Translations under genes and position numbers: made by a program
The notes under the pieces: model-generated
Told to the model about the DNA's origin: nothing
Seen by the model: only the letters and a program-made list of their open reading frames with translations
The model's database searches: none
In this document: positions 49,327-52,844 of the stretch, one piece after another
Layout of the letters: every line of letters begins with the position of its first letter
How positions within the stretch are numbered: the stretch's first letter is position 1
DNA from: an uncultured Pirellulaceae bacterium
GTDB taxonomy: Bacteria > Planctomycetota > Planctomycetia > Pirellulales > Pirellulaceae
Direction of reading: 5' to 3'
Length of the DNA: 53,581 nt
Assembly: GCA_938091115.1 (NCBI GenBank)
Contig: CALKNI010000034.1
Span: 1 to 53,581 of the forward strand

Positions 49327-50850
49327 TTACTCTGCACCGGCGAGTTTGGCCGGTGCCGGATTAGGTTCGGTTACGCGTGGAGCGATTGTTATCGGGGCTG
49401 CGCCCATCGTTCCTGGTAATTCAGACGGATAGGCACTCATGCCATGTTCGCTCATATCGAGCCCTTGCAGTTCTTCGGCTTCGGAGACCCGTAGAATTCC
49501 CACGAGCTTCAAGATACTGAACAAGGCGAGCATTGTCAGGAATGCCCAAGCGACAATGGAAACCGTCCCGATAACTTGAATCAGAAAAGTTGTTGCTCCG
49601 CTCTCGAGGTGAGCGTTGGGAATAAACCCAATTGCCAGGCATCCCCAGATGCCGCAAAGGCCGTGTACGGGCCAAGCGCCAACCGGATCATCTATTTTTA
49701 AACGGTCAAGGAGGCGTACGCCGGCAACAACAAGTGCACCGGCGCACGCTCCAATCACCATTGACCACCATGGTGTAAAACAGTCAGGACCAGCAGTGAT
49801 TCCAACCAAACCTCCCAAAGCTCCGTTCAAGCCGATGGAGATATCTGGTTTTCCAAGCCAAATCCAACTAATAAATGTAGCAACGATTGCACCGGCAGCG
49901 GCGGCAAGCGTTGTGGTTACTGCAATGTAAACCGTCGCGTCGATATCAGCGGCGGTTCCAAAGGCGAGCTGGCTTCCGGGATTAAATCCGTACCAACCAA
50001 CCCACAGAATAAATACTCCGAGTGCGGCGAAAGTCATGTTGTGGCCAGGCATTGGCTGAGGCTTTCCCTCTTTGGAAAAGCGGCCAATTCTTGGACCGAG
50101 AACGAGAGCGCCGGCAAGTCCAGCAAACCCTCCAACCGCATGCACAACAACTGAACCAGCGAAATCTTGAAATGCTAACGGATACGAGCCGTCGGCAGCC
50201 ACTTGTCCAAACTGAGTTAGCCAGCCGCCCCCCCATTTCCAATAACCGCTGATCGGATAAACCAGCGCAGTCAGGACGGCACTAAAGATCAGGTAGGATC
50301 CGAAGCGCATCCGACCGGCGACAGCACCCGAGACGATCGTTGCAGCGGTAGCAGCAAACACGGCCTGGAAAAACCAATCGGCGTAGGGAGATAATGAATC
50401 GGTTTCGGATGCTCCATAGATTCCAAAGCCACCAAACGAGAAGTACGCATTGGTAACTTCACCGTAGCAGCTCGGATACATCAGGGCGAAACCAACCGTG
50501 AAAAACAACAATGCTCCGACAGATAAATCCATCAGGTTTTTAAACAAGATGTTGACTACATTTTTCGAACTGTTGAGTCCAACCTCAACCATCGAAAAAC
50601 CAGCCTGCATGAACAAAACCAAAACCGCACAGATAAAAATAATTGCGTTATTAAAAACGTAAGAAAGCTCATCAGTCGTAACTGAATCACTCTCGGTCGA
50701 ATCAGCAATTACCTCGGTCGTACTAACGACTTCGACAATGTCTTCTTGAGCAAAAACAGAATTCGAGTGGTCTAGATTAAAACAGGAGAGAATCAGAATA
50801 ACACCGATTAGGATCGATATAGGTTTCAATAGGTTAGAAGATTTGCACAC
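49327..50850 (-). CDS. amt: Ammonium transporter Amt family (second copy)
   Basis: A 507-residue Amt-family channel, distinct from the copy at 5808. It has a signal-like hydrophobic N-terminus (to about FAQ, residue 34), an acidic stretch rich in Thr/Ser/Glu (residues 35-60), then 11 membrane helices. Pore histidines are in SVVVHAVGG and WPVHGLCG, and the gate region is FFQAVFAATAATIVSGAVAGRM. The C-terminal regulatory tail LRVSEAEELQGLDMSEHGMSAY is followed by a Pro/Ala-rich extension not seen in the first copy. The start is unsure: the longest reading from 50931 has an unconserved leader. The GTG at 50850, 10 bases after AAAGGA, gives a normal signal sequence and is preferred. A strong terminator follows at 49182-49213. 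No glnK is adjacent. Confidence 0.94.
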   Translation of the reverse strand: MCKSSNLLKPISILIGVILILSCFNLDHSNSVFAQEDIVEVVSTTEVIADSTESDSVTTDELSYVFNNAIIFICAVLVLFMQAGFSMVEVGLNSSKNVVNILFKNLMDLSVGALLFFTVGFALMYPSCYGEVTNAYFSFGGFGIYGASETDSLSPYADWFFQAVFAATAATIVSGAVAGRMRFGSYLIFSAVLTALVYPISGYWKWGGGWLTQFGQVAADGSYPLAFQDFAGSVVVHAVGGFAGLAGALVLGPRIGRFSKEGKPQPMPGHNMTFAALGVFILWVGWYGFNPGSQLAFGTAADIDATVYIAVTTTLAAAAGAIVATFISWIWLGKPDISIGLNGALGGLVGITAGPDCFTPWWSMVIGACAGALVVAGVRLLDRLKIDDPVGAWPVHGLCGIWGCLAIGFIPNAHLESGATTFLIQVIGTVSIVAWAFLTMLALFSILKLVGILRVSEAEELQGLDMSEHGMSAYPSELPGTMGAAPITIAPRVTEPNPAPAKLAGAE

Positions 50851-51124
50851 TGCATTGGGTTCCTTTTGGAGGTGGCAACGGATGTAGGCTCGGAAGGTAC
50901 CCCGCCGTCGGGGACAATTCTCCTTTCGCAAACTTCATACCAATTCGATTTAAGATTCCGTGCGCCGTGGCAATCGGTCGATTTCAGTCGGAAAAAACGC
51001 TATCGTTTTTTCTCTTTTTTTCTTTTCCAAAATTCAGCGGCCTCTGAACAACGATGTTGATCGCTTAAATCGAGTGCAGCCGAGATTCATTCCAAGGCAA
51101 CCAAATTTCCGAACCAACCTTGTA

Positions 51125-51160
51125 AAACCGAAAGGGTAGAATTTCTTCCCTTGACGGTTT
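51125..51160. promoter_or_regulatory. Imperfect hairpin in the amt-porin intergenic region
   Basis: AAACCG at 51125-51130 pairs with CGGTTT at 51155-51160, and AAGGG at 51132-51136 with CCCTT at 51148-51152. This makes an 11-bp stem with a small 1x2 internal loop and an 11-base apical loop. No T run follows on either strand, so a terminator is unlikely. It may be a leader RNA structure of the amt gene or an operator. Confidence 0.45.
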
Positions 51161-51345
51161 GGTTAGCAAATTATTTGGTGGTTAGTGGCGAGGAATTGCA
51201 CAAAAAATAATCAAATCTGGCTGTTTTACTGCTTTGTTTGGCAGATGGCTTGTTCAGATCCGAAAGAACGATGGGTGAGTGAAGCGAATGAAGAGGGGGC
51301 TCTTTTGAAACTTCAAATCTTGCGTTTCGGCGAGTTAGTTGAGCA

Positions 51346-51438
51346 TTGACAGCAGTCTTAATTACTGCCTGACGGAAGTCTTTTATTAACCGTTAAACCT
51401 TGACAGCGCTGACGGGATGGATCGTTTTAACCGTTAAA
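51346..51438. repeat. Two-unit repeat of TTGACAGC / TGACGG / TTAACCGTTAAA upstream of the porin gene
   Basis: Unit 1 is TTGACAGC at 51346-51353, TGACGG at 51370-51375 and TTAACCGTTAAA at 51386-51397. Unit 2 is TTGACAGC at 51400-51407, TGACGG at 51410-51415 and TTAACCGTTAAA at 51427-51438. The TTAACCGTTAAA boxes are near-palindromes (TTAAC-C-GTTAA) and start 41 bp apart, about four helical turns. The TGACGG boxes start 40 bp apart. The elements lie 183-275 bp upstream of the porin start codon. They look like an operator pair for a dimeric regulator. Confidence 0.6.
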
Positions 51439-51620
51439 GTTACGCAGCTTTGATGCTTCCAGATCCGTAATTACAGAAAATAGTTGAATTTGGAATAGTC
51501 GCTACGGGCGTCAAAACCGATTCAACAGATGTCGTGAAGCGCAAGCTCAGCCAGCATCGTGTTGGGTTTGATGACCAACGGAAAACAAATAACGATGTTA
51601 GTACAACACAGGGTGGTGAC

Positions 51621-52844
51621 ATGAAACGAGGAAAGTCAGGATGGATGTTTGTCGTAGGGCTTATTGGATCGGGAGCTTTGGGGCTCTCTGGTGTTCAGGG
51701 ACAAACAATTAACAATGTAGGAACACCCGCAACGGCTGTTTCTTTTCAAGATGATGCAGCAACCCCCGCACCAGTTGCGGAAGAGGCTGCTGGCTGTGAT
51801 TCAGGGCTCAGCGAGCCTTGGACATTATTTGGTAACGGATGTTCAGATTCCTGCTTGAATATCGGTGGTTGGTTTGCCATGGGTATTCACACCGACTCGA
51901 ATGATCTTTTCAATTCGAATCCAGATTCTTTTGACCTTAGCCAGGGGTGGTTGTTCGTTGAAAAGGAAGCGAACTCAGAGAACGGTGAACTAGCATTTGG
52001 TTTCCGTTTTGATGGCATGTACGGTGTCGATGGTCCTGACACTCAGTCTTTCGGTAATCCAGGCACAGAGTGGGATATGGATCCTGCTTATACACGTGGC
52101 GGTAACTACGGCTGGGCGATACCTCAGCTTTACGGTGAAGTTGCCTTGGGAGATCTCAGCGTCAAGATCGGACACTTTTACACTTTAGCAGGTTACGAGG
52201 TTGTTGGCTCTCCTGATAACTTTTTCTATTCTCATGCAATCTCGATGTACAACAGTGAGCCATTTACTCACACAGGTGCTGTTGCAACGTATGAGATGAA
52301 TGATTGCACCACCCTGTACGGTGGCTGGACTGCTGGATGGGACACTGGCTTTGCTCAGTTTGGCGAAGGCAGTTCGTTCTTGGGTGGCTTCTCTCGTACA
52401 CTCAATGACGATGCATCGTTCACCTATATTACCACATTCGGTAATCTTGGTGCACGTGGCGACGATGCGTACGGACACAGCATGGTTCTTGACATGCAGA
52501 TGACAGAGAACATGCAATGGGTTATCCAGAGCGACTTGCTTCGAGTAAGCAGTACTGGCGAAGACAACTTTTCGCTTATTCACAACATGTTCTACACTCT
52601 TTCAGATCGCTTGACCTTCGGCAGGCGTACTGAGTGGTGGAAAGGTGATAATGTCACTGGGTACGCTCCGCACGGTGGAGATCTTCCTTCAACTGGATCT
52701 CACTCGCACTACGCAAACACCGCCGGATTCAACTACAAGGCGACTTCGAACCTAACAGTTCGTCCAGAGTACCGATACAACTGGTCTCCTGCGGCGGGCT
52801 ACAAAGAAAGTATCTTCGGAGTTGATTTCGTTATGACTTTCTAA
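51621..52844 (+). CDS. Outer-membrane beta-barrel porin-like protein
   Basis: A 407-residue protein of the planctomycete beta-barrel type (BBP2/porin-like). From the ATG at 51621, preceded by GGGTGG, it has a signal peptide (about residues 1-26, ending VQG-Q). A Pro/Ala/Glu-rich stretch follows, then a Cys cluster (residues about 51-74) and alternating aromatic strands: GWFAMGIHTDSND, LAFGFRFDGMYGVDG, LYGEVALGDLSVKIGHF, LYGGWTAGWDTGF, TVRPEYRYNWSP. The final residue is Phe (VDFVMTF), the outer-membrane assembly signal. A 29-residue longer reading from 51534 is rejected because it puts the signal inside the chain. It may let in small solutes. Upstream is the repeated regulatory module, downstream a terminator. 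Confidence 0.87.
   Translation: MKRGKSGWMFVVGLIGSGALGLSGVQGQTINNVGTPATAVSFQDDAATPAPVAEEAAGCDSGLSEPWTLFGNGCSDSCLNIGGWFAMGIHTDSNDLFNSNPDSFDLSQGWLFVEKEANSENGELAFGFRFDGMYGVDGPDTQSFGNPGTEWDMDPAYTRGGNYGWAIPQLYGEVALGDLSVKIGHFYTLAGYEVVGSPDNFFYSHAISMYNSEPFTHTGAVATYEMNDCTTLYGGWTAGWDTGFAQFGEGSSFLGGFSRTLNDDASFTYITTFGNLGARGDDAYGHSMVLDMQMTENMQWVIQSDLLRVSSTGEDNFSLIHNMFYTLSDRLTFGRRTEWWKGDNVTGYAPHGGDLPSTGSHSHYANTAGFNYKATSNLTVRPEYRYNWSPAAGYKESIFGVDFVMTF

Follow-up and report, generated by a model that had tools for sequence, protein, structure and literature searches.

The window, i.e. the whole stretch of 53,581 nucleotides analysed here, belongs to a Mariniblastus-type planctomycete, whose named relatives are Mariniblastus and other metagenome assemblies of the Pirellulaceae. 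The region under study sits between two divergent genes, one encoding an ammonium transporter (amt) and the other a BBP2 beta-barrel porin. The TTG start of the listed amt open reading frame is probably placed too far upstream. The features are as follows.

49327 to 50931, minus strand: divergent ammonium transporter gene amt (Pfam match, PF00909)
50927 to 50942, minus strand: sigma-54-like site TGGTATGAAGTTTGCG, pointing towards amt; its core recurs in 9/9 aligned regions, including that of the distant L009
51346 to 51353, plus strand: unit 1 box TTGACAGC; the relatives have CTGATAGC or GTGATAGC
51347 to 51354, plus strand: TGAYAGCA, a short conserved box amid variable sequence (7 of 8 columns the same in all eight sequences)
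51369 to 51412, no strand: switch of phylogenetic signal; on its upstream side the window clusters with L008, and on its downstream side the window falls outside all seven relatives
51370 to 51375, plus strand: unit 1 TGACGG, exact in the window genome only
51386 to 51397, plus strand: first TTAACCGTTAAA, exact in 4/8 regions; left half TTAACCG in 7/8 (GTAACCG in L007)
51400 to 51407, plus strand: unit 2 TTGACAGC, exact in 4/8; resembles a -35 box, with no -10
51410 to 51415, plus strand: unit 2 TGACGG, in the window genome only
51427 to 51438, plus strand: second TTAACCGTTAAA; the relatives have TTCAATCGTCAAA or similar
51439 to 51620, plus strand: porin leader, about 180 nt long and reaching the ATG; conserved, single copy, in the eight orthologues only
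51621 to 52844, plus strand: BBP2 beta-barrel porin gene (Pfam match, PF07642)

A first-pass annotation of this DNA described a duplicated three-box module with phased palindromes in front of the porin gene. As a description of the window it is accurate: the six boxes lie at 51346 and 51400 (TTGACAGC), 51370 and 51410 (TGACGG) and 51386 and 51427 (TTAACCGTTAAA), the spacings from unit to unit are 54, 40 and 41 bp, respectively, and the distance from TTGACAGC to TGACGG differs between the units by the 14 bp reported (24 vs. 10). The perfect symmetry, TTTAAC-C-GTTAAA, is complete in the second palindrome only, the first copy being ATTAACCGTTAAA. By itself the palindrome pair is unremarkable, since among 200 dinucleotide-shuffled versions of the window 28% had an exact 12-mer directly repeated within 100 bp. 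The full colinear pattern of a 12-mer, an 8-mer and a 6-mer was met in 0/200 shuffles, with a statistic that was defined after the pattern had been seen.

A homologue of the porin was found in 39 of the 40 genomes searched, and the divergent arrangement of amt and porin with an alignable intergenic region was found for eight porin regions (L001-L008, window included). Box conservation was counted in an alignment of these orthologous regions (A1, the window plus seven relatives). The module is not kept before the orthologues: the duplication of three boxes is absent in all seven relatives, though the regions can be aligned throughout, and four of the six box copies, namely the unit 1 TTGACAGC, both copies of TGACGG and the second palindrome, are exact in the window genome only. 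At the position of the unit 1 TTGACAGC every relative has TGATAGC, preceded by C or G, and in A1 neither the unit 1 nor the unit 2 TGACGG was found in any of the seven. The second palindrome, exact in 0/7, typically reads TTCAATCGTCAAA in the relatives, while the first palindrome is exact in three (L002, L003 and L008), as is the unit 2 TTGACAGC in the same three. Upstream of 13 more distant porin loci (L009-L020 and L025) these boxes were not seen by eye, and a plasmid collection searched for the porin yielded distant porins only. One further porin relative, L024, has several stops within the match and is apparently a decayed copy.

The two sides of the window's intergenic region have discordant histories. 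Upstream of 51346 the intergenic tree makes the window the sister of L008 (support 99/99), and the window amt protein is closest to that of L008 (95% identity), with the amt protein tree leaving this fork open. The porin protein tree, for which L009 and L011 served as outgroups, places the window outside all seven relatives (98/96). Sites that the window shares with L008 and no other relative number 20 in 51100-51399 and 2 in 51400-51699 (per 300 columns). The last before the switch are at 51365 and 51369; beyond it, 51468 stands by itself, and 51698 and 51752 are also shared. At four-fold degenerate sites, identity between the window and L008 reaches 0.80 for amt but 0.63 for the porin, compared with 0.73 to 0.79 between the porins of L008 and other relatives (5 pairs). 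These trees and site patterns are most simply explained if the window acquired a divergent allele, leader plus porin, through recombination that broke within the reported module. Replacement of an outer-membrane porin allele is probable in the window; the alternative is faster change on one branch in place of recombination. The unit 1 states at 51346, 51350 and 51372 are unique to the window, in a part where it otherwise groups with L008, and these changes look derived in the window lineage whether recombination or faster change was at work. The states of unit 2 are not polarisable, because there the window is the outgroup to the other seven.

Part of the phased arrangement stands and part of it does not. 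The 41-bp offset between the palindrome positions is constant in 8/8 regions, in each of which the two boxes have 9 to 12 of 14 bases in common, and columns within the palindrome boxes are more often invariant than their neighbours (17/24 vs. 23/55, Fisher p = 0.016), a modest sign that the box positions may matter singly; the perfect copies themselves are lost, the first being kept in 4/8 regions and the second in 1/8. One might take these data to indicate a true tandem operator, in which a dimeric regulator bound to TTNAAYCGTYAAA-type sites spaced by four helical turns would control the porin, with the window carrying the best-matching sites. In favour of such an operator, this porin is the one gene preceded by the 41-bp pair (up to 3 mismatches), which was seen in 4 of 28 genus genomes, with no matches for the control. 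Against it, most relatives do not keep the exact symmetry, the constant spacing tells little because the stretch is nearly free of indels, and shuffling the L008 sequence produced, in 52 of 100 trials, two 14-base segments that agree at 11 positions or more, so that in the relatives the 41-bp pair is a loose resemblance, at a level often reached by single shuffled sequences. Genome-wide, the sites are rare. When up to one mismatch is allowed, TTTAACCGTTAAA matches the window genome 8 times and its reversed control 33 times. The reported boxes account for three of these 8 matches, with one box counted on either strand. Of five other exact or near-matching sites examined in this genome, three fall within open reading frames of 100 aa or longer and two do not. 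In 27 of the 28 genus genomes the exact 11-mer TTAACCGTTAA occurs less often than its reversed control, the exception being G011 (4 vs. 1), and enrichment of the palindrome site was not found in these 28 genomes. A regulon of the palindrome site was thus rejected, none emerging from single sites (window genome and 28 genus genomes) or from 41-bp pairs (28 genomes). On balance we regard a tandem operator as fairly unlikely. The palindrome string also occurs in one paper on Corynebacterium production strains.

From about 51380 to the porin ATG, a part that includes both palindrome positions, the sequence is strongly constrained: 128 of 176 leader columns are invariant, compared with 8 of 46 columns at the alignment's upstream edge, and leader identity equals or exceeds that of the four-fold degenerate sites of the porin in 28/28 pairs (L004-L005 being equal at two decimals). 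A DNA search of the 28 genus genomes with the leader gave matches in nine, comprising the eight porin orthologues and one 23-base match inside long open reading frames, and a covariance model of the leader found the same eight of 28, and in the order 1 of 146 genomes, the window itself. A leader peptide was rejected by eye, as single-base indels break the leader alignment. The leader might instead act as an RNA, with GUCGUCAC pairing with GUGGUGAC just before the ATG and masking the ribosome-binding site, in which case the boxes would be its promoter-side edge. The constraint is in keeping with such an element, the start-masking pairing is proposed by RNAalifold, and a TC to CT change in the window preserves both pairs (columns 185-186). 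Yet the fold energy of the alignment was reached by 13/200 column shuffles, covariation did not rise above shuffles (the score was reached by 74/500 and the double changes by 126/500, with few variable pairs), the minimum-energy folds of individual sequences disagree with one another, and Rfam gave no match at the gathering score, only sub-threshold ones. A structured RNA is not claimed here, because fold energy and covariation are not convincingly above their controls and the single-sequence folds differ; we consider a functional leader RNA of this kind unlikely. Another conserved leader, AAAGSRTGTGCT...GCACC, was observed upstream of another group of porins in the genus (L012, L013, L015, L016 and L017), where it has a possible long closing stem; the fold energy of its alignment was reached by 12/200 shuffles, and it has no Rfam match.

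On the amt side, the site TGGTATGAAGTTTGCG, which resembles the sigma-54 consensus, suggests nitrogen-controlled transcription of amt. A conserved block, ACAACGATGTTGATCGCTTAA, was noticed by eye at about 51047-51083, some 110-150 bp upstream of this site, and is a plausible place for an enhancer. On the plus strand, the porin-proximal part contains no sigma-54 core (GG-N10-GC) scoring 8 or more. The most elaborate of the readings considered would make the leader a new cis-acting RNA that hides the ribosome-binding site, preceded by a promoter with a phased operator pair in a region shared with a sigma-54-driven amt; we think this decidedly unlikely, and if it were true, porin and nitrogen uptake would be co-regulated. 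It is highly improbable that the two TTGACA copies serve as the -35 elements of sigma-70 promoters in tandem: the unit 2 hexamer is TTGACA in 5/8 regions (TTTACA in 2, TTAACA in 1), but the unit 1 TTGACA is present in the window genome only, no -10 hexamer follows at 16-18 nt, and a sigma-70-like promoter scan of 50900-51640 found 0 where 0.6 were expected, in agreement with the earlier remark that no good -10 is present.

The reading we prefer, at a probability of roughly 0.6, is an ordinary porin promoter and leader region in which lineage-specific substitutions have made a striking, probably fortuitous repeat. The stretch would then be the proximal regulatory region of the porin gene facing the ammonium transporter gene, containing a few single conserved sequences (TGAYAGCA and, offset from each other by 41 bp, the TAACCG and TTNAANCGTNAA positions) that are most likely contacts for RNA polymerase or a putative porin regulator, followed by the constrained leader of about 180 nt, which may act on porin expression. 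On this reading the three-box look is not an inherited duplication; it arose from a handful of point substitutions in the window lineage and, as a second source, from the divergent leader and porin allele with its boundary within the module. Counted against a fortuitous repeat are the absence of the full pattern from the 200 shuffles, the excess of invariant columns within the boxes, and the three bases at which the second palindrome differs from the form common in the relatives (T for C, C for T and T for C); all three of these changes raise its symmetry and its likeness to unit 1 and hint at selection or conversion.

Tandem operators for regulators are known upstream of bacterial porins, e.g. 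the OmpR sites at ompF and ompC. In the window, too, short sites recur ahead of a porin gene at spacings close to whole helical turns; it differs from these operators in that its repetition is not conserved and belongs to no genome-wide set of sites, and in that its regulator is putative. Conserved 5' leaders of bacterial porin mRNAs also exist. Like them, the leader in the window is long and constrained and runs to the start codon; unlike them, it has no Rfam family match, is restricted to one clade and has a predicted structure that covariation does not support.

The locus offers a caution, in that an eye-catching repeat in one genome dissolves when it is set beside seven orthologous regions. 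To our knowledge few promoters have been mapped in this group of planctomycetes, which is known here from metagenome assemblies, and a strongly constrained leader before a porin gene that adjoins an ammonium transporter gene may serve as a modest lead for the study of porin regulation in the group.
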